The notes beneath the pieces were generated by a model. The model saw only the letters and a program-made list of their open reading frames with translations. It did no database searches and had not been told where the DNA came from. Below, piece by piece: positions 3,286-21,390 of a stretch of DNA of 21,832 nt; position 1 is the stretch's first letter; each line of letters starts with the position of its first letter. This stretch comes from a virus: positions 1 to 21,832 of IMG/VR virus record IMGVR_UViG_3300048918_000297; one strand, given 5' to 3'. Both the position numbers and the translations under genes were made by a program.

Positions 3286-3574
3286 CAACCCGGTGTACCG
3301 CGACGGGGTGATCCACGTCTGCGCTCACAAGTGCAAGACGTGCATCTATCGCCCCGGCAACCTCATGTACTTGGAGGAGGGGAGGAAGGACCGCATGGAA
3401 GCGGAGGCCGTAGCCGCCGAGTCCGTCATCCCCTGCCACCGGACGCTCGGGCCGGGGGCTGCGATCTGCCGCGGATACTGGGACACTCAGTGGCGCAACG
3501 TCTTTCCGCTGCGTCTAGCCGTGGCGACAGGGATAGTCGAAGAGTTGGATCCAGACAGTAAGGAAGTGATGTGA
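3278..3574 (+). CDS. Conserved-looking Cys-rich phage protein (98 aa)
   Basis: ATG at 3278 follows GGAGGAGG at about 3261-3268. The N-terminus has HVCAHKCKTCIYRPGN (C15, C19, C22), a basic helix follows, then PCHRTLG and a final CRGYWD. The Cys/His order C-x3-C-x2-C ... CH ... C could bind zinc or an Fe-S cluster. I recall similar CKxC...PCH...CRG(Y/F) proteins in actinophage early regions, but no function is known to me. It overlaps the next gene by four bases (GTGA). Confidence 0.8.
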   Translation: MSDNPVYRDGVIHVCAHKCKTCIYRPGNLMYLEEGRKDRMEAEAVAAESVIPCHRTLGPGAAICRGYWDTQWRNVFPLRLAVATGIVEELDPDSKEVM

Positions 3575-4755
3575 GTACCGATCAGGCTCAGGCCGTCTAC
3601 GCGGCCGAGGACCTCTGGTCCGCCAAGGAGCCACAGGCCCGAATCCGCTTCGCGGACTGGCGCAACGTCCAGCCGTTCTACGTCAAGCTCGCAGCACGGT
3701 TCCGTGAGGCCGACGTCTACGTCTTACCACCCACCGTACGACCGCGGAAGGGTGCGCTCCAGGCGCACTACGACACGGGGCTCAAGTCGGTGTTCATGCC
3801 GCCGTACGACAGCGGTGGAGTCTGGGCGCTGAACACGGGCACCGCGATCCACGAGTTCGCACACCACCTGTCGCCGGGCGCGGGGCACGGACCGGCCTTC
3901 CGACAGGCGATGATCGACTGCCTGGAGATGCTCGGGTGGGACGCCGAACTGCTGGCCGATTGCTACGAGCAGGCGGGCCTCGCCATGAGCGACAAGGCCG
4001 AGGGAATCACCGACAAGGTGAGCAAGTTGATCGAGCACGCGGACGGGCAGGGTCGTACCCCGGAGGAGAAGAAGACCTTCCTCGAGAAGGCGGAGCGGCT
4101 GGCCGCCGAACACTCACTCAACCTCGCGCTCCTGCGGAAGAAGCAGGCGGACGCAGCAGGTCACCGTATCGAGGAGCGACCCATCACCGGAGAGTTGTTC
4201 CCGCTGACATCCCTGCCGAACGTGACGTACCGCAACCTCGCCGTGGAGTTGGGTAGCGCGATCGCACGGGCGCACGGCGCGCAGTGTACGATCCGAGGGA
4301 AGTCAACGTTCATGACGTTCTACGGCTTCTCCGAGGACGTCAACCTCACGGAGCTCATGCTCGCCCGTATCACGCCCATGATGTTCGAGGAGAGCGACGA
4401 CTACCTCAAGTCACCAGAGCACAAGCACTCCGGGGCAGCGGCGACCAGCGCACGGATCACGTTCTGCAAGAACTTCGCGTGGGAGGTAGGCCGCAGGCTG
4501 ACCGAGGCCGTGAAGCAGACCGAGCGAGCGGTGCAGGAGACACTGGCGATCACCGACGGCACCGTCAGCACGGAACTCGTGATGCGCGAGAAGGCCCTCG
4601 AGGTTGCGGACTACGTCGCCTACGAGTTCAAGCGTCAAGGCGTGAAGGGATCCTGGAAGGGGAGCAACTCCTCAGCCTGGAGCGGAAACGCAGCCGATGC
4701 GGGCAGGGTGTCCGCGAAGAACGTCAACCTGTTCGGACGAAAGGAACTGTCATGA
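3571..4755 (+). CDS. Zincin-type metallopeptidase-like protein with DUF2786-like region
   Basis: This 394-residue protein starts at GTG 3571 in a GTGA overlap. Residues 94-106 read HEFAHHLSPGAGH, a gluzincin-like HExxH (H94, E95, H98) with a plausible third ligand at H106, followed by GPAFRQAM as in SprT/Wss1-like domains. Residues about 150-190 (VSKLIEHADGQGRT... LEKAERLAAEHSLN) look like the helical DUF2786 domain, and the C-terminal half resembles the region that usually follows it in phage proteins. DUF2786 proteins have no established activity. SprT-like enzymes cleave DNA-bound proteins, so a role in clearing protein from phage DNA is possible but inferred. Confidence 0.75.
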   Translation: MSTDQAQAVYAAEDLWSAKEPQARIRFADWRNVQPFYVKLAARFREADVYVLPPTVRPRKGALQAHYDTGLKSVFMPPYDSGGVWALNTGTAIHEFAHHLSPGAGHGPAFRQAMIDCLEMLGWDAELLADCYEQAGLAMSDKAEGITDKVSKLIEHADGQGRTPEEKKTFLEKAERLAAEHSLNLALLRKKQADAAGHRIEERPITGELFPLTSLPNVTYRNLAVELGSAIARAHGAQCTIRGKSTFMTFYGFSEDVNLTELMLARITPMMFEESDDYLKSPEHKHSGAAATSARITFCKNFAWEVGRRLTEAVKQTERAVQETLAITDGTVSTELVMREKALEVADYVAYEFKRQGVKGSWKGSNSSAWSGNAADAGRVSAKNVNLFGRKELS

Positions 4756-11469: not shown

Positions 11470-11950
11470 CGACAGGCTGGAGTTCGTAGCCGAGTTGACC
11501 CTGCTGGGGTTCAGCCCGCAGAAAATCGCGGAGCGTCTGGGCGTCAGCGAGCGGCTGGTCAAGAGCGACCTCGAGAAGATCCGCATCCGGTGGCGGGAGA
11601 ACCGGCAGAAGTCCTACTCGGAGTTCATCGAAGAGGAGTTGGCGACCCAGAGGTTGCTGATGCAATCACTCGAGATCGGCATCAAGTCCGGGTCGTGGAA
11701 GCACGTCGAGACGGCTCTCAAGATCACCGAGCGCCGCGCCCGCGTGATGGGCCTGGACCACACCGATCGCATGGAACAGGCGCGGGTGGAGATCGAGGCG
11801 CGGCAACTCGACATGATCAGCCACGCGCTGGAGCGTGTGATGGATGTGCTGGGGCTGAACGACGAGCAGCGGGAGCTCGCCACGAGCACCCTGATTCTGG
11901 AACTGGAAGAGGGCGATATCACCATCGAGGAAGACGAGGATACTGCATGA
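11462..11950 (+). CDS. Helix-turn-helix DNA-binding protein (162 aa)
   Basis: ATG at 11462 overlaps the primase-helicase by 8 bases, with AAGGATG next to it. Residues about 10-40 (LTLLGFSPQKIAERLGVSERLVKSDLEKI) form a clear sigma-region-4/LuxR-like HTH. The remainder is a long amphipathic helix, then a very acidic tail (EEGDITIEEDEDTA). The size and HTH-plus-coil layout resemble small terminase subunits as well as transcription regulators. The location far from packaging genes favours a regulator or primase partner. ATGA overlap with the next gene. Confidence 0.75.
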   Translation: MSDDRLEFVAELTLLGFSPQKIAERLGVSERLVKSDLEKIRIRWRENRQKSYSEFIEEELATQRLLMQSLEIGIKSGSWKHVETALKITERRARVMGLDHTDRMEQARVEIEARQLDMISHALERVMDVLGLNDEQRELATSTLILELEEGDITIEEDEDTA

Positions 11951-12879
11951 GCGTACTGACCATCATCTCCACCACGTCGCAGCGCAAGAATCACGCTGCG
12001 CTGGCGTGTGCGAGATACAATCGGGACCACGAGTCGGTGGTCGTGATGGACCAGGGAGGAGGCACGGTCCTCGACGGCTATCGGGAAGGGATCACGTGGG
12101 TCCGTACTCAGAACGACAACCTACTCGCGCAGTTGAGAAACGGCTGCGACCTTGCTCTGGTCAACGGTGACGACTACGTGGTCCTCCTGGACGACGACGT
12201 CACGTACCTGACACCGATCGAGCCGAGCGGGAACTCCTACCGCATCCGGTCCAAGAAGAACGTACCGGGCGATGAGGACTGGCGCGGGGCGCTCACCGAG
12301 GAGAGCCTGACCTTCATCGACGACAACGTGGAGACGTGGTTCGAGGGCGACCGGTCCATGCTGGTGGTGTCGTCCCGCCTGTTCTTCCCGAAGCCGGACG
12401 AGGTGATCGAGCACGTGTCCCCGCTCACACTGACCCGCTTCCCCTCCGTGTTCAACGATCACGTCGTGTGGCGGACCGAGGCGCTCGACGAAGTGCTGAA
12501 GGCGTTTGACAACCTCGGCATCCTGAACTACTCCGCGGGTGTGGACAAGGCCGGGGCGCTGATCAACAACATTCTGGGATACTCCGTAGGGCGGCTCCAG
12601 TGGATCCGTGCCACGAAGTGGGACATCACCGGCAACGACGAGTCCACGATCTACGACTTCGGGGACATCCCCACCGACCAGAGAAACGTGTACCGGAACC
12701 AGGAGGACGCGAAGTCCCTGCGGAAGTTGGCTCCGCTGGTGGAGGAGAGCGGCCTGTCGTTCAAGGCGTCGATCACGAAGAACGGCAGCCTCAACTCGTT
12801 CACCAGGACGACGGGCGTCACCCTGGACCAGATGATCGACGACTACATCCGCAACTCCGAACTCAAGGCGCTGCTCTGA
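11947..12879 (+). CDS. Candidate GT-A glycosyltransferase-like protein (310 aa)
   Basis: ATG at 11947 (ATGA overlap). A longer reading in this frame extends over the HTH gene and is a shadow. The N-terminus begins with a beta strand and polar loop (SVLTIISTTSQRKNHAALAC), then GDDYVVLLDDDVTYL, where D82-D84 match the metal-binding DxD of GT-A nucleotide-sugar transferases. The rest is mixed, with FFPKPDEVIEHVSPL, a GILNYSAGVDKAG loop and a helical C-terminus. The known activity of such folds is sugar transfer from UDP/GDP-sugars, and in phages the target is often modified DNA bases. The assignment rests on one motif and the fold order. Confidence 0.5.
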   Translation: MSVLTIISTTSQRKNHAALACARYNRDHESVVVMDQGGGTVLDGYREGITWVRTQNDNLLAQLRNGCDLALVNGDDYVVLLDDDVTYLTPIEPSGNSYRIRSKKNVPGDEDWRGALTEESLTFIDDNVETWFEGDRSMLVVSSRLFFPKPDEVIEHVSPLTLTRFPSVFNDHVVWRTEALDEVLKAFDNLGILNYSAGVDKAGALINNILGYSVGRLQWIRATKWDITGNDESTIYDFGDIPTDQRNVYRNQEDAKSLRKLAPLVEESGLSFKASITKNGSLNSFTRTTGVTLDQMIDDYIRNSELKALL

Positions 12880-12889
12880 CAGACCCAGC

Positions 12890-12972
12890 CCCTAGGCACG
12901 GATAACACCACCCGCTAGGCTAGGCAGTAGGCAACGCGCCGGGGGAGATCTCCTGGTGGAACCCGAGAAAGG
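12890..12972 (+). promoter_or_regulatory. Repeated promoter/leader cassette, copy D
   Basis: Upstream CCCTAGG (12890-12896), core GCTAGGCTAGG with TAGGCT (12916-12921), then AGGCAAC. The hairpin is CGCCGGGGG (12937-12945) / CTCCTGGTG (12950-12958) with a 4-base loop and three G-U pairs, and GAGAAAGG (12965-12972) lies 9 bases before ATG 12982. Compared with B and C the 3' arm differs at several bases yet still pairs, which argues for selection on RNA structure. Confidence 0.75.
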
Positions 12973-15844: not shown

Positions 15845-15936
15845 GCAGCCGGGGCGGGGTCGTTCCGTCGAGTGGGGAGTTGCCCCCCACCGACAGCCCC
15901 GTCACAGGGTGAGCCTTTCTCCCCCGCCCCGGCTGC
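15845..15936 (+). other. Large folded intergenic element between SSB and DNA polymerase genes
   Basis: A perfect 15-bp stem (15845-15859 with 15922-15936; GCAGCC-GGGG-C-GGGG and its complement) encloses about 62 bases that contain a second hairpin: GTCG (15867-15870) and GTGGGG (15872-15877) with CCCCAC (15885-15890) and CGAC (15891-15894), one bulged A. A TACCAT at 15834-15839 could be a -10, placing a start at the stem base. There is no T-run, only TCTTCC follows. It may be a GC-type terminator, a leader that controls the polymerase gene, or a small RNA. I cannot tell which. It is not protein coding. Confidence 0.6.
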
Positions 15937-15958
15937 TCTTCCGTTAGACAGGAGAGCA

Positions 15959-17992
15959 GTGGACCCGGTAGCGGTCAACCGAGTGAAGTTCTCGGACGCG
16001 GCGAAGTCCATCATCCGGACTGCCGCCCTCGCTGCTCTGGGTGAGCCCCTGAGAGTCAAGTACACCGACGGCGATGCCGATCTAGCGTTCGACCTGCGTG
16101 ACCAGAACGCCGCCGTACGTACTCTCGGTCCGAAGCAGTTCTTTGACACGGTGTGGATCCCTACCCCGGACGGCGGGGGCTTCCGCAAGGGCATCGGCTA
16201 CCCGAACGCTCAGTATTACGTCCAATTCGCGTTGAAGCAGGCGCTCGGGCTAGACCTCCATATGTTCGACGACGACGTGCTCATCATTGACACCGAGACA
16301 CACGGATCTGAGCACCGCTGGAACATGCACCCCCGCGATTTCTTCCGGCTGGGACAGTACGCCTGGGGCGAGGGGCCGGTCACGCTGACCCAGAACTACG
16401 ACGAGATAGTCGACGCCCTGCGGTCTGCCCGGCTGATCATCGGCCACCAGATCCACTCGTACGACCTGTCCTACCTCATGGGTGACGACGCTCTCCACCT
16501 GCCTGTCTTCGACACCTTTGTCCACGCAACGTGTGTCGCGCCCGCGCCCGACCGCTTTCTCAACGCGAAGGGTGTGACCCAACTCTCCAACTCGCCAGGG
16601 TCGGCGTTGGCCTTCCACTCCCTCGAGAACTCCTGCTTCACGTTCGGCATCGAAGGGAAGCACGGCAACCTGAAGGAGATGGCAAGGCGGCACAAGTGTG
16701 AGATCGGTGAGATCCCCATCGACGAGGAGTATGAGGAGTATGCGCGGCAGGACGTGGTGGCGAATCGGGAGTTGGCGAGAGCCATGTTCAGCGTTGCCGA
16801 ACCTACCGACTACGAATGGCGGGAGCAAGAGGTAGCGGCGATCAACGCCCAGATCAGCCGCAACGGGTTCCGCGTGGACCGTGCGGTGGCCGAGGCACGG
16901 GTGGCAGAACTCCAGCGCCGGAAGGACGCGCTGCTCGTTGACCTGGTGATGGACTACGGCTTCCCAACGCAGGGGAAGCAGCCGTGGCGGAGCAACGCGG
17001 GGAAGGCGGCGATCCTGGAGATCCTGGGGCCGGACGCCAAGAAACTCCCCAAGACGAAGAAGGGCGCACCGTCCCTGTCCGGGGATGCGATCAAGGGTGT
17101 GACCGAGGGCACCACGAACGAGGCGTTGGGTGAGGCGCTGGGCGAACTGCTAGGTCAACGGTCACTGGCACGACTCGCTCTCGATAACGTCCATGACGAC
17201 GGATACGTCCACCCGGACATCACATCGCTCCAGCGGTCACGGCGGTTCTCGGTGTCCAACCCCGGCCTGTCGGTCTGGACGGCACGCGGACCCGGAGCGG
17301 TAGAGAAGGCGTACTTCGTGGCAGACGATGAAGACCATGACCTGTACGAGATGGACTTCTCCGCAGCCGACGCCCGCGTGGTCGCGGCGTACAGTGGAGA
17401 TCGGCACTACCTGAGCGACATGACCAACCCGAAGTTCGACGCTCACATCCAAACAGCGCGATGGTGCTTCGGGGCAACGTTCGACACGGACCCGAAGAAG
17501 TACCGTCAGATCGCGAAGGACTGCACCCACGCCATCCCGTACGGAGCCGGAGGCAAGCGGGTGAGCATGACGGCAGGTATCCCGTTGTCTGACGGCTACG
17601 ACGTGATCAAGAAGTTCGGCAAGACCTACCCATCGGTCGCCAAGTGGATGGAGAAGGCTCGGGAGGAGGGGAAGTCCGGTATTCTGGTCAACGCCTGGGG
17701 CGGCGTGCTCTACCTCGAGCCGGGACGTGAGTACACACAGTCGCCCGCGCTGTACGGACAGAACGGCACCCGCGAACTCCTCGTCGACGGGATGATCCGG
17801 TGCCGGGACGCGGGGCTGCTCCAGTATCTCAAGATAACCGTTCACGACGCCGTGGTGTTCTCGTTCCCCAAGGACAACGGAGAGGCGATGAAGGCTGAGG
17901 CCGAGGCGTGCTTCACCACGAAGTTCCGAGGAGTTCCATTCCCACTAGCGAGCGGAAAGCCCGCTCCCGACTGGTATCAGGCAGGACATTAG
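15959..17992 (+). CDS. Family A DNA polymerase with 3'-5' exonuclease domain
   Basis: GTG at 15959 after AGGAG (15950-15954) gives 677 residues. An earlier in-frame GTG at 15872 lies inside the folded element and is rejected. 3'-5' exonuclease motifs: Exo I IDTETHG (about 110), Exo II IIGHQIHSYDL, Exo III YARQDV (about 260-265). Polymerase motifs: A YEMDFSAADAR (about 463-473), B KYRQIAKDCTHAIPYG (about 516-530), C TVHDAVVFS with D630. The usual HDE is HDA here (A631). The 5' nuclease domain of host PolI is absent, as in T7-type phage enzymes. It works with the SSB and primase-helicase. Confidence 0.95.
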   Translation: MDPVAVNRVKFSDAAKSIIRTAALAALGEPLRVKYTDGDADLAFDLRDQNAAVRTLGPKQFFDTVWIPTPDGGGFRKGIGYPNAQYYVQFALKQALGLDLHMFDDDVLIIDTETHGSEHRWNMHPRDFFRLGQYAWGEGPVTLTQNYDEIVDALRSARLIIGHQIHSYDLSYLMGDDALHLPVFDTFVHATCVAPAPDRFLNAKGVTQLSNSPGSALAFHSLENSCFTFGIEGKHGNLKEMARRHKCEIGEIPIDEEYEEYARQDVVANRELARAMFSVAEPTDYEWREQEVAAINAQISRNGFRVDRAVAEARVAELQRRKDALLVDLVMDYGFPTQGKQPWRSNAGKAAILEILGPDAKKLPKTKKGAPSLSGDAIKGVTEGTTNEALGEALGELLGQRSLARLALDNVHDDGYVHPDITSLQRSRRFSVSNPGLSVWTARGPGAVEKAYFVADDEDHDLYEMDFSAADARVVAAYSGDRHYLSDMTNPKFDAHIQTARWCFGATFDTDPKKYRQIAKDCTHAIPYGAGGKRVSMTAGIPLSDGYDVIKKFGKTYPSVAKWMEKAREEGKSGILVNAWGGVLYLEPGREYTQSPALYGQNGTRELLVDGMIRCRDAGLLQYLKITVHDAVVFSFPKDNGEAMKAEAEACFTTKFRGVPFPLASGKPAPDWYQAGH

Positions 17993-17994
17993 AG

Positions 17995-18861
17995 ATGAAC
18001 GAAGAGATGATGAGTCTGTACCGGGTCATGGTGGTAGAGAGGCACAAGATCTGGCTCGCCCGCCAGGAGAACCAGCCTCAGCCGTGGACCGCGGACCCGG
18101 TGTTGATGAATCGCAAGTTCACGAATATGTTCCGCGTCCTTGACCCCGGCTCGCAGTTCGTCTTCGACCTTGACGACAACGATCCGGTGACTGTGATTAC
18201 CCGGCTGGTCTTCTACCGGATCACGAACAAGCCGTCGACGTGGTACGCATTGAGGTCGTCGCTCGGACGTTACCCGATAGTGAACGATTTCATCCAGAAC
18301 CCGGAGCGGATCACCGCCTTCCTGGACCTGTACCGAAACTTGGGAAACCGGATCTTCAGTGGAGCGTACATCATTGTCCCAGAGCCGGGGACGGCGAACG
18401 ACAAGATGGAGGGCGCGGTGCGCGTGACCCAGCGATTCATCCGTGAACGGGCCGAGGACTTCTTGGGATCGACCACCCAGGATGAGCGGTTCGCCGTGCT
18501 GCGGTCCACCCCCGGCCTCGGCCCGTTCCTGTCGATGCAGATCCTCACCGACTGGAACTACCTCGAGGAAGAGGAGCCGGACCTATCGTTCATCAAGGCT
18601 GGCCCCGGTGCGATCCGCGGTGCTGCCCTGCTCGACTCGTCCAAGAAACCGGAGGACGTGATCTACGATCTCGCCTTCGACTGGATGGACCATCCAACCG
18701 TCAACCTGAGAGGCCGCTCCCTCACGCTGATGGATGTCCAGAACACTCTCTGCGAGTTCGGCAAGTACGTGAAGGAGACCAAGAACCCGCGGAAGAAGAC
18801 CACGTATCGGCCTTCGCACCCCGGCGTCCAGCCGGTTCCCATCGTCCCGGCGTGGTGGTAG
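17995..18861 (+). CDS. Thymine hypermodification protein: aGPT-Pplase / 5-hmdU DNA kinase helical domain-like
   Basis: ATG at 17995 (AGGA at 17983) gives 288 residues. It matches the helical domain found in alpha-glutamyl/putrescinyl-thymine pyrophosphorylases and next to 5-hmdU DNA kinases: N-terminal VVERHKIWLAR, then PWTADPVLMNRKFTNMFRVLD (W31, D34, F42, R47, D50), and a helix-hairpin-helix STPGLGPFLSMQILTD (G174-G176) as in HhH DNA glycosylases, ending with LTLMDVQNTLCEFGKY. Known relatives activate 5-hydroxymethyluracil in DNA for hypermodification, pyrophosphorylase-type. No kinase domain is fused here. It is adjacent to polymerase and ThyA genes, so it acts on thymine-type bases. Confidence 0.8.
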   Translation: MNEEMMSLYRVMVVERHKIWLARQENQPQPWTADPVLMNRKFTNMFRVLDPGSQFVFDLDDNDPVTVITRLVFYRITNKPSTWYALRSSLGRYPIVNDFIQNPERITAFLDLYRNLGNRIFSGAYIIVPEPGTANDKMEGAVRVTQRFIRERAEDFLGSTTQDERFAVLRSTPGLGPFLSMQILTDWNYLEEEEPDLSFIKAGPGAIRGAALLDSSKKPEDVIYDLAFDWMDHPTVNLRGRSLTLMDVQNTLCEFGKYVKETKNPRKKTTYRPSHPGVQPVPIVPAWW

Positions 18862-18893
18862 ATTCCACGACGGCACTGGACCTGCCCCGCCTG

Positions 18894-18935
18894 CTAGGCT
18901 AGGGGTACAGGCAACAACTAGAGAATAGAGAAAGG
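18894..18935 (+). promoter_or_regulatory. Repeated promoter/leader cassette, shortened copy E
   Basis: GCTAGGCTAGG with TAGGCT (18895-18900), then ACAGGCAACAACTAGAGAAT and GAGAAAGG (18928-18935), 6 bases before ATG 18942. The core, AGGCAAC and ribosome site match copies A-D, but the GC hairpin between them is missing (the leader is about 15 bases shorter) and no CTAG copy lies 21-24 bases upstream. It could be a deletion derivative or a differently regulated version. Confidence 0.65.
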
Positions 18936-18941
18936 CAGAAC

Positions 18942-19490
18942 ATGAGTCTGGCAAAGATCAACCGGATTGGCAAGGTCCGGAAGGCGACCACGTGCGAGAA
19001 GTGCGGGGACCCGATCGGCGTGGGCAGCCCTGCCGTCAAGTTCGCAGTGGGCTTCCGCGCTCGTACGAGGGTCCGCTGCACCAAGTCCGAGTGCTTCCCG
19101 AAGCCCAGCGAGCGCGAGTCGTCGCTGGTGTCCAGCGTGTATGCCGCGCAGGAGGAGGCCGACGCCTCCACCGCCGACAGCCTGGAGGATCTCGAGCAGA
19201 TCCGCGACGACATCGCCAACGCCACCCGCGAGGTCGCGCAGGAGTACGAGGACAGTGAGATGTTCGAGAGGAACTACGACCTCCAGGAGCGGGCGGAGAC
19301 GCTGAACGGTGCAGCCGACGAACTGGAGAATTGGCAGCCGGAGGGGGAGGACGAGCCGGACGAGGACGACAAGGGGACTTGGTCGTACAACGGCCATGAC
19401 TTCGACACCTACGAGGATGCTCACAACGAGTGGCTCCTGCACGCCCGCCAGTCTCTTCAGGCCGCGATCGACGAGATGGAGCTCCCGTGA
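18942..19490 (+). CDS. Zinc-finger protein with acidic coiled-coil tail (182 aa)
   Basis: ATG at 18942 is set by GAGAAAGG at 18928-18935. Residues 18-51 hold a Cys4 site: TCEKCGDPIGVGSPAVKF, a basic FRARTRVRC and CFPKPSERESS. This resembles PARP-type zinc fingers seen in actinophage proteins with the C-x2-C-G-D/P-I-x-x-G pattern. Residues about 65-135 form an acidic, coiled-coil-like helix (LEDLEQIRDDIANATREVAQEYED), and the C-terminus (YNGHDFDTYEDAHNEWLL) is aromatic. It probably binds nucleic acid or a partner of the downstream ThyA-like enzyme, with which it overlaps by GTGA. Confidence 0.75.
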   Translation: MSLAKINRIGKVRKATTCEKCGDPIGVGSPAVKFAVGFRARTRVRCTKSECFPKPSERESSLVSSVYAAQEEADASTADSLEDLEQIRDDIANATREVAQEYEDSEMFERNYDLQERAETLNGAADELENWQPEGEDEPDEDDKGTWSYNGHDFDTYEDAHNEWLLHARQSLQAAIDEMELP

Positions 19491-21073
19491 GTGAGCAATA
19501 CACGTTCCCCACGGCGAGCGAGGCGCTCCCGTTCATCTGCTCGCGGATTCTGGACATAGGGGACGAGGTGGGCAGCAGGAACGGGCGGGTGAAGGAACTG
19601 CTGAACACCAAGATCGTCCTGACTGACCCGCAGCACCGCGAGGTCCTCAGCATCAACCGCAAGGCCAACGTCTTTGCCCAGATCGCTGAGACGATGTGGG
19701 TGCTGGCCGGGCGCAACGACATCGAGTGGCTGAGCCCCTACCTGCCGCGAGCCAAGGAGTACAGCGACGACGGAAAGACGTGGAGGGGTGGCTACGGCCC
19801 GCGCCTCCGCTACTGGACCCTGTTCAACGGGGAAAGGCTAGATCAACTCGATCACGTCGTAAAGACGCTTCAGGCGGACCCACTGTCCCGGCGTGCGGTG
19901 ATCGCGATCTACGACCCGGCGCGTGACACGGAGCCGGGTAAGGACATCCCCTGCAACGACTTCCTCCAGTTCCAGAGCCGCCTCGGTGCCCTGCACATGA
20001 CCGTGACCGTGCGGTCGAACGACGTGATGTGGGGCTGGTCGGGGATCAACGCCTTCGAGTGGAGTACCGTCCAGGAGATTGTGGCGCACCTGCTCGGTAT
20101 CGCCGTGGGCACGCTCACGTTCAACATCGGGAGCCTGCATCTCTACGAGCCGCATTGGGACAAGGCCGGTCGCCTGGAGCACGAGGACAACACGTACGCG
20201 ATCAGCCCGTTCCAGATGCCCGACCGATTCACCCGGTCTATGGTGTGGGTGGACCTCCTCATCGACCAGTGGTTCCATTGGGAGGGGTTGTGTCGAGAGG
20301 GCAAGGCCACGATGGAGGCCCTGGACAAGATCGAGGAGCCGCTGTTCCAGTCCTGGGCCGTGGCGATTGCGTACTTCTGGCAGCGCGATGAGTTCTGGCT
20401 CAAGGCGCTCAACGGCACGGCGCTGGCAGCGGCCATAGCCAGGACCCCCGCCACGACGCTCTCAGAGGCCCCTCAGACGTCGCACGACACCGGGGCGGGG
20501 GTAACCCACAACCTAGCCGCGCACGACCGTACAGGAGCGTTCTACGCCTTCGTCACGGACCTGCACGCCAAGAAGCACGCGTCGTACGGTGACTCATGGA
20601 TGAAGCGGGGTGAGAAGATGTCCATACTGGCGAACATGGCTCGCAAGGTGGACCGGCTGGGAGTCGGTGATGAGTACGACAGTTCGGCGGACACCCTGAT
20701 CGACCTGCTGGTCTACGCGAGCAAGTACCACTGCTGGCTCCTCGGCTGCGAGGCGAACCCGGAGAACGTGAATCAGGGGCTGGCCGTGGCTCTGGCAGAA
20801 GAAGAGGAGACGGTGGGGCAGGCGGCGGACATCGCCATCGTCGACATCGTGGATGACTTCAACCTCTACTGCGACAGCATCGACACGTACAGCACAGACC
20901 AGAAGTTGGACTTCGTCAGCGAGCTGATCCTCCGGGTGACACCCATCGCCCGCGATGTTTGGTACGCGGAGACCCACGGCCAGCCGTTGGACGAGGATGA
21001 CGGCGACCACCGCGATCGCCGGCTGGCCGAAGAGATCGAGCAGGACGACTACAAGGGAGCCGATGCAGATTGA
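19487..21073 (+). CDS. ThyA-like dUMP (hydroxy)methylase fused to Nmad1/DUF1599-like domain
   Basis: GTG at 19487 (GTGA overlap) gives 528 residues. Residues about 1-310 are ThyA-type: ETMWVLAGRNDIEWL, WRGGYGPRLR, SRRAVIAIYDP, catalytic PCN (C156), VTVRSNDVMWGWSG, then N188, the position of the uracil-specific Asn, and LHLYEPHW. It is thus dUMP- rather than dCMP-type. Residues about 349-421 (TGAFYAFVTDLHAKKH, YGDSWMKRGE, ARKVDRLG, LIDLLVYASKYH) match nucleotide modification associated domain 1 (DUF1599; MazG-like all-alpha). The rest is acidic helix. It is inferred to make 5-hydroxymethyl-dUMP (or dTMP) while the fused domain cleaves a competing nucleotide. Confidence 0.88.
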   Translation: MSEQYTFPTASEALPFICSRILDIGDEVGSRNGRVKELLNTKIVLTDPQHREVLSINRKANVFAQIAETMWVLAGRNDIEWLSPYLPRAKEYSDDGKTWRGGYGPRLRYWTLFNGERLDQLDHVVKTLQADPLSRRAVIAIYDPARDTEPGKDIPCNDFLQFQSRLGALHMTVTVRSNDVMWGWSGINAFEWSTVQEIVAHLLGIAVGTLTFNIGSLHLYEPHWDKAGRLEHEDNTYAISPFQMPDRFTRSMVWVDLLIDQWFHWEGLCREGKATMEALDKIEEPLFQSWAVAIAYFWQRDEFWLKALNGTALAAAIARTPATTLSEAPQTSHDTGAGVTHNLAAHDRTGAFYAFVTDLHAKKHASYGDSWMKRGEKMSILANMARKVDRLGVGDEYDSSADTLIDLLVYASKYHCWLLGCEANPENVNQGLAVALAEEEETVGQAADIAIVDIVDDFNLYCDSIDTYSTDQKLDFVSELILRVTPIARDVWYAETHGQPLDEDDGDHRDRRLAEEIEQDDYKGADAD

Positions 21074-21390
21074 AGACCTACACCGCACTTCTCGCCCTAC
21101 CGGACGGACGCATGGCGAACGAAGCCGCCACCCGCATCCCCGGTGCTCAGGTCATCGACAACACGCAGGCCGGTGTCTGGCTCGTCTGGACGGGGGACGC
21201 GGAGAACGACAAGGCAGGGGTGGACCTCCTCCAGGAGATGCGCCTCCGCGCCGAGATGTTTCCCGAGTTCGCGGAGGGCGGTGTCACCACCCCATCGGGT
21301 GCTGACCCCACCCTGTTCCAGACCACTCCGTTCCTCGTTCTCCAAGGAGCCTGCACCGTGATCCACACCGAGGAGGTCCTATGCCTATGA
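21070..21390 (+). CDS. Hypothetical protein (106 aa)
   Basis: Reading frame from TTG 21070, which overlaps the previous stop (TTGA) and has AAGGGAG at about 21053-21059. The first ATG is at 21112. The product KTYTALLALPDGRMANEAATRI starts with a strand and a basic loop, then GVWLVWTGDAENDKAG, a helix LLQEMRLRAEMFPEFAEGG and a C-terminal TPFLVLQGACTVIH. The family is not recognised. It probably shares the operon with the ThyA-like gene. The alternative start changes the protein only at its N-terminus. Confidence 0.7.
   Translation: MKTYTALLALPDGRMANEAATRIPGAQVIDNTQAGVWLVWTGDAENDKAGVDLLQEMRLRAEMFPEFAEGGVTTPSGADPTLFQTTPFLVLQGACTVIHTEEVLCL

Follow-up and report, generated by a model that had tools for sequence, protein, structure and literature searches.

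Genes on a 21,832-bp phage fragment make it likely that the phage modifies its thymine by way of 5-hydroxymethyl-deoxyuridine (5-hmdU). The fragment (IMG/VR record IMGVR_UViG_3300048918_000297, labeled G000 here and called the window; GC content about 63%) found no relative by megablast among 50,697 annotated phage records. Its module pairs a helical protein of the aGPT-Pplase1/HMUDK_hel family (aGPT1; 17995..18861, + strand) with a ThyA-family enzyme (19487..21073, + strand) that is predicted to hydroxymethylate dUMP. The genes run in the order single-stranded DNA-binding protein (SSB, 15299), family A DNA polymerase (PolA, 15896), aGPT1 (17995), a small gene (18942), and the ThyA-like gene (19487), and the right end of the window lies 759 bases past the 3' end of the last of these. 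A modification based on 5-hmdU is well supported because aGPT1 matches Pfam family PF18723, the ThyA-like protein resembles hydroxymethylases and has a uracil-type Asn, and the locus is syntenic with known cassettes. On balance, the module appears to make a hypermodified thymine; the side group is most probably a sugar, and aGPT1 would present the base.

An initial annotation of this DNA had proposed that thymine is replaced or decorated, on the model of alpha-glutamyl- or alpha-putrescinyl-thymine. The part that concerns 5-hmdU stands, but the amino-acid-type chemistry does not agree with the close relatives, which lack a 5-hmdU kinase, an aGPT2 protein, and a pyridoxal phosphate (PLP) enzyme and carry glycosyltransferases (GTs). 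The annotation missed both a GT-A-like gene at 11947-12879 and the fact that the contig is a fragment.

The predicted hydroxymethylase and its helical partner

The ThyA-like protein (528 aa) is best read as a predicted dUMP hydroxymethylase. Profiles were taken from Pfam, PHROGs, and NCBIfam; structures were modeled with AlphaFold2 and compared with the PDB by Foldseek, and profiles were compared with each other by hhalign. The protein matches PF00303 (E=7e-26 over residues 17-228) and thymidylate-synthase families in PHROGs, the best being phrog_3676 (E=5e-72). Against the NCBIfam equivalogs for true thymidylate synthases it reaches 78 bits, where the cut-off is 327. A profile built from 18 relatives matches the CMP 5-hydroxymethylase MilA best among solved structures (E=1.3e-39), while thymidylate synthases follow at 7e-25 or weaker. 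Asn188 and the cysteine of the PCN motif (C156) are present, and neither varies among the 18 members of the fused family; MilA has Asp opposite Asn188. At this position of ThyA enzymes an Asn marks uracil specificity and an Asp cytosine specificity (E. coli ThyA N177, T4 gp42 D179). Its proximity to MilA, its scores far below the thymidylate synthase cut-offs, and its Asn where MilA has Asp thus point to a dUMP hydroxymethylase, and the earlier description of the enzyme as ThyA-like with a uracil-type Asn188 was correct.

The C-terminal domain (approximately residues 346-430) is strongly conserved in the fused family, with the motif YGDSWxxRGExxxILxNxxRKxDRL(G). The extension noted in the initial annotation is therefore real, but the Nmad1 label given to it is unproven because no Pfam family matches the isolated domain at E<=10. 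In PHROGs it finds weak matches to unnamed families and to one labeled 'replication protein'. Another contig (L083:2469-2798) encodes a short stand-alone protein with a YGDSWxxRG...ARKxDR motif directly after its ThyA gene. The occurrence of the domain in both fused and split form is evidence for a functional link between ThyA and this domain.

The neighboring aGPT1 protein (288 aa) is a clear member of the HMUDK_hel family. Its gene follows the PolA stop codon by two bases and is separated from the ThyA-like gene by one gene (18942-19490), as had been described. The PF18723 profile, which the initial annotation had suggested as a check, matches it strongly (164.2 bits, cut-off 25; E=5.5e-48; model positions 3-276 of 281), and it also matches phrog_2396 (E=5e-42). 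The AlphaFold2 model is confident and all-helical (pLDDT 92.6), with a fold like that of helix-hairpin-helix (HhH) DNA glycosylases. The top PDB match of the model is 8z2m, the 5-PmdU glycinyltransferase PUGT of phage PaMx11 (probability 0.87, TM 0.43, E 0.33), and the next matches are the HhH DNA glycosylases NTHL1, OGG1-type, and AlkA-type. By sequence, 8z2m is a relative of the aGPT2 family, which matches the amino acid:DNA transferase 25qc (E=7e-59) and PUGT 8z2m (E=7e-18) among PDB sequences. The aGPT1 and aGPT2 profiles themselves have no homology detectable by hhalign (probability 0.2%).

The fold of aGPT1 suggests that it binds DNA and presents the base. In the HhH stretch PGLGPFLSMQILTD, an invariant Phe (F178) apparently occupies the position of the catalytic Lys of EndoIII-type enzymes, and Gly-Pro-Gly follows where glycosylases keep their Asp motif, which argues against base excision. 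The residues R16, R47, D50, F178, D186, G203-P204-G205, G209, C253, E254, and K257 are the same in 100% of the homologues, whether these are linked to a kinase or to a GT, and the window protein has R16, R47, D50, F178, D186, the GPG, C253, E254, and K257. The conservation tables used earlier labels from iterated profiles, and none of the classes departs from the invariant residues. A protein that served only the kinase would be expected to drift once the kinase was gone. The same residues are kept with either partner, and the simplest reading is therefore that aGPT1 has a single activity needed by both pathways. We infer that it is a reusable base-presenting partner.

Glycosyltransferases and kinases as apparent alternative partners

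The closest relatives of the window carry GTs and none of the genes for amino-acid-type side groups. Identity in the ThyA protein is 68-83% for the clade L006-L011. Whole-record searches of these relatives, including the 55.7-kb G006 and the 48-kb G003, found no 5-hmdU kinase, no aGPT2/amino acid:DNA transferase, and no PLP enzyme. A GT of the TAGT type or of the type in the window is present in every record except L007, a fragment, which has a GT-A and a GT-B downstream. Directly after ThyA there is a TAGT-like GT in L006, L008, and L010; in L008 another lies between a helix-turn-helix (HTH) gene and a DUF3846 gene. The TAGT profile PF20691, which describes GT-A-type DNA glycosyltransferases, matches nine of the eleven GTs examined; it matches those of the sister phages but not the window GT or its counterpart in L011. 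The L011 contig, G006 (55,699 bp), is probably complete because a unique 30-bp direct repeat stands at its ends. It carries a window-type GT and also, about 1.4 kb downstream of ThyA at 25901-27546 (L107:5901-7546), a GT-A (phrog_14945, E=2.5e-33) and a GT-B (PF13692, E=2.7e-8) near an apparent lysis gene. This pair is conserved in L006, L007, and L008, and may add a second layer of sugars to DNA or may glycosylate another target. The window ends before that point, and two more GTs would be expected just past its right end.

The candidate decorating enzyme of the window phage is a GT-A-like protein of 310 aa (11947..12879, + strand) containing the sequence VVLLDDDVTYL. Residues DDD82-84 are present, and there is a weak but collinear match to the glycosyltransferase family phrog_2456 (E=0.0019). 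The gene is surrounded by replication genes and lies after an HTH gene (11462) and before a DUF3846 gene (12982), the slot in which the sister phage L008 has a TAGT. Its homologue in G006 is 83% identical. A pattern scan of bacterial genomes found no relatives of this protein, and hhalign found no match between it and the downstream GT-A family. With 11947-12879 as a plausible transferase, the earlier remark that none is evident is open to doubt.

Across the aGPT1 loci surveyed, the GT and the kinase never co-occur. A scan with an aGPT1 alignment gave 80 loci, and removal of duplicates and addition of reference phages left 85 distinct contigs, most of them covered for about 10 kb on each side of aGPT1. 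The final counts are from strict profiles, as an iterated aGPT2 profile also matched aGPT1 itself in some loci. A GT of either the TAGT or the window type was found in 22 contigs, a kinase in 21 (36 with iterated profiles), aGPT2 in 23, and a PLP enzyme in 19. No contig of the 85 had both a GT and a kinase (Fisher p-values of 1e-3 with strict and 5e-7 with iterated profiles), nor did a GT occur with aGPT2 (5e-4) or with a PLP enzyme (2e-3); all of these p-values ignore kinship. Relabeling from iterated to strict profiles left the exclusivity of kinase and GT unchanged and turned 'aGPT2-only' loci into loci with no partner called. In a maximum-likelihood tree of aGPT1 the type of partner changed seven times, and at least five of the changes are forced by well-supported branches. 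In contigs that are only distant relatives (L059, L078, L098, and L100), too, the aGPT1 gene repeatedly adjoins or overlaps a TAGT gene.

The type of hydroxymethylase differs among these loci. The enzyme beside aGPT1 is Asn-type in most contigs and Asp-type in five GT-linked ones, including that of Microbacterium phage Nucci (by the earlier, iterated-profile labels), so the GT version seems to serve uracil and cytosine alike. The kinase-linked loci are almost wholly uracil-type; the one Asp-type exception, L103, has its kinase match at the far edge of the locus. Asp-type enzymes, predicted to act on dCMP, were seen in the aGPT1 loci of L004, L043, L044, L048, L055, L057, and L059, mostly with a TAGT. 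Inspection of two contigs for which neither kinase nor GT had been called gave hints of further side chemistries. L081 has a radical S-adenosylmethionine (SAM) gene directly upstream of aGPT1 (L081:3448-5545), and L088 has a weak TAGT-like gene, a sugar-nucleotide epimerase, and GT4-like genes near it (L088:12030-15258). Because such genes stand in uncalled contigs, GT-type loci have probably been undercounted.

The cassette of the M6-like Pseudomonas phages (M6, SN1, MP1412; PMC9476957) consists of a ThyA-family hydroxymethylase, aGPT-Pplase1, a P-loop kinase, a radical SAM enzyme, a PLP enzyme, and aGPT-Pplase2. It resembles the window in its Asn-type hydroxymethylase and its aGPT-Pplase1 near PolA; it differs in the kinase, PLP enzyme, and aGPT2, in place of which the close relatives of the window have GTs. 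In the accepted scheme 5-hmdU is phosphorylated and then further modified by transferases (PMC6449724). Glutamicibacter phage Montesquieu (OV696619) has SSB, PolA, aGPT1, and a fused ThyA in the same order as the window, and the ThyA proteins are 42% identical over 78% of their length, but its locus runs on into aGPT2, a PLP enzyme, and two P-loop kinases. The kinase, aGPT2/amino acid:DNA transferase, and PLP enzyme are also found in many metagenomic phage contigs distantly related to the window. Brevibacterium phage LuckyBarnes (NC_047851) has a fused Asn-type ThyA, aGPT1, and two TAGT-like GTs, and no kinase was found in it; its TAGTs are recognizable and stand next to ThyA, and its gene order is different. 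The announcement of this phage assigns it a dCMP hydroxymethylase (PMC6588365), whereas its Asn-type enzyme predicts 5-hmdU. Pelagiphages of the HTVC023P type belong to a different lineage and have the same three-gene association as here, namely a thymidylate synthase, aG/PT-PPlase1, and a beta-glucosyl-HMC-alpha-glucosyltransferase; a 2022 paper remarks that this possibly broadens the M6 scheme (PMC9599517).

The proposed pathway has three steps. The ThyA-like enzyme would hydroxymethylate dUMP, a step that is well supported, and the product would be phosphorylated and incorporated in place of thymidine by the neighboring family A polymerase, which would have to accept 5-hmdUTP. The HhH-fold aGPT1 would then bind the DNA and present or flip selected 5-hmdU residues. 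The base would be passed to the GT-A glycosyltransferase (11947-12879) instead of to an M6-like kinase and amino acid:DNA transferase. The product would be a glycosylated 5-hmdU that is chemically akin to base J, and the expected gain is resistance to host nucleases that recognize T-containing sites.

Alternative explanations

Four other explanations of the module were weighed. It is unlikely that the phage makes an amino-acid-type hypermodification like those of M6, ViI, and phiW-14, with the kinase, aGPT2, and tailoring enzymes past the contig end and the GT-like gene unrelated. This reading draws on the fact that aGPT1 is known from exactly such a cassette (PMC9476957), that Montesquieu and many contigs with the same core have the kinase, aGPT2, and PLP enzyme, sometimes several kb away, and that the window stops 759 bp after the ThyA gene. 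The absence of all three genes from L006-L011, including the apparently complete G006 and the 48-kb G003, and the GTs found there speak against it. Plain replacement of thymine by 5-hmdU, as in SPO1, is also improbable; the GTs would act on the virion or the host surface, and aGPT1 would protect or read 5-hmdU. The hydroxymethylase is indeed the best-supported part of the module, the downstream GT-A and GT-B of G006 are near an apparent lysis gene, and the GT of the window is weakly characterized. However, aGPT1 stands beside or overlaps TAGT genes in distant contigs, the TAGT of T6 (beta-glucosyl-HMC-alpha-GT) acts on DNA (PMC13216743), and the window GT sits among replication genes.

A cytosine base is very unlikely. 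In this case the ThyA-like protein would be a dCMP hydroxymethylase and the sugar would be on 5-hydroxymethyl-deoxycytidine (5-hmdC), as announced for LuckyBarnes. Its closest match among solved structures is indeed a CMP hydroxymethylase, and some phages with aGPT1 and TAGT, such as Nucci, have an Asp-type enzyme, but Asn188 is invariant in the family of the window and is replaced by Asp in MilA and the Nucci group. Scarcely probable at all is the absence of any DNA modification, with the ThyA-like enzyme supplying thymidylate and aGPT1 doing something else. Several phage records do annotate such proteins as thymidylate synthase; the scores far under the cut-offs for those enzymes, the proximity to hydroxymethylases, and the constant partnership with a modification-family protein argue otherwise.

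Several results weigh against a glycosylated 5-hmdU as the product in the window phage. Because the window is incomplete, this phage itself may have a kinase, an aGPT2 protein, or a PLP enzyme beyond the end of the contig. The candidate GT matches no Pfam family at E<=1, PF20691 included; its hhalign alignment to TAGT covers the region of the DDD motif only (probability 13%), and an AlphaFold2 run from an alignment with distant TAGTs gave no usable model (pLDDT 32). A tblastn search of annotated phages found no relatives, and a single homologue is known. The Foldseek matches of aGPT1 are weak by E-value, although they agree in kind and are consistent with base-flipping enzymes. No partner of either kind was recognized within the stretch searched in 36 of the 85 contigs. 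Phylogenetically independent pairs also point toward exclusivity, none being positive, but they are too few for significance (median p 0.25 with strict labels and 0.06 with looser ones). The available literature yielded no nucleoside data for any GT-type phage.

Neighboring genes and significance of the module

The genes and intergenic sequence around the module are in part conserved among the relatives. The polymerase upstream of aGPT1 (15896..17992, + strand) is a family A enzyme (PF00476, E=5e-22; phrog_17, E=6e-68). Its assignment as DpoZ was dropped, the resemblance being 35 bits against a cut-off of 500. Between aGPT1 and the hydroxymethylase lies a gene for a 182-aa protein with an N-terminal cysteine cluster (18942..19490, + strand). 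The protein is conserved in the clade and has no convincing family match in Pfam, PHROGs, or NCBIfam, and because the kinase-type relatives L013, L017, and L021 have it too, elsewhere in their loci, it is not tied to one chemistry. A 106-aa protein is encoded right after the hydroxymethylase (21070..21390, + strand), in the slot that holds a TAGT in L006, L008, and L010. Profile searches gave no family for it, and among the loci compared only L007 and L011 have homologues. Upstream of the 182-aa gene, the repeat GCTAGGCTAGG followed by GGCAAC is found at 18893..18914 (+ strand) and in a second copy at 12914-12935. The core occurs in the window in two exact copies and two with one mismatch, compared with 0.17 expected, and G006 has two exact copies (16829 and 22893) at matching places, one of them just upstream of the ThyA gene. 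The repeat may be a phage promoter because it contains TAGGCT, which is like an actinobacterial -10 element, and the copy at 18893-18914 is a possible promoter of an operon covering 18942-21073. Elsewhere in the window, 3571-4755 encodes an HEXXH-type metallohydrolase region (weak TIGR04338 match, below the cut-off) joined to DUF2786/DUF7168 domains, and 2374-2919 encodes an HNH endonuclease with an AP2 domain (PF13392, E=2e-14), probably a homing endonuclease.

PF18723 takes its name from a 5-hmdU kinase, yet in the survey it occurs about as often with DNA glycosyltransferases, and never with both. The association of thymidylate synthase, aGPT1, and a glucosyltransferase was already known from pelagiphages (PMC9599517), while the exclusivity of GT and kinase, the repeated swaps of partner, and the split between uracil and cytosine were not found in the parts of the literature that were available. 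A wider possibility, which we hold only tentatively, is that aGPT1 is a chemistry-neutral, base-flipping docking protein and no part of the kinase, that it works with interchangeable decorators (a kinase plus an amino acid:DNA transferase, or a GT-A glycosyltransferase) and with U- or C-type hydroxymethylases, and that a large group of phages, this one among them, makes base-J-like glycosylated 5-hmdU. Solitary TAGTs are common (288 of 753 phage genomes; PMC13216743), and if this wider reading is true, many of them would thereby gain the substrate that they have lacked so far. The role of the helper and the substrate of the solitary TAGTs lead to a testable prediction, namely hexosyl-5-hmdU in Asn-type phages and hexosyl-5-hmdC in Asp-type phages. 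Microbacterium phages like Nucci, whose loci combine an Asp-type enzyme, aGPT1, and a TAGT, are thus predicted to contain glycosylated 5-hmdC, although the name of their helper refers to a 5-hmdU kinase. Each of the three predicted chemistries has an isolated phage (LuckyBarnes, Nucci, and Montesquieu). A sugar on thymine would also influence to which of the modification-dependent restriction enzymes and antiviral DNA glycosylases such phages are open.

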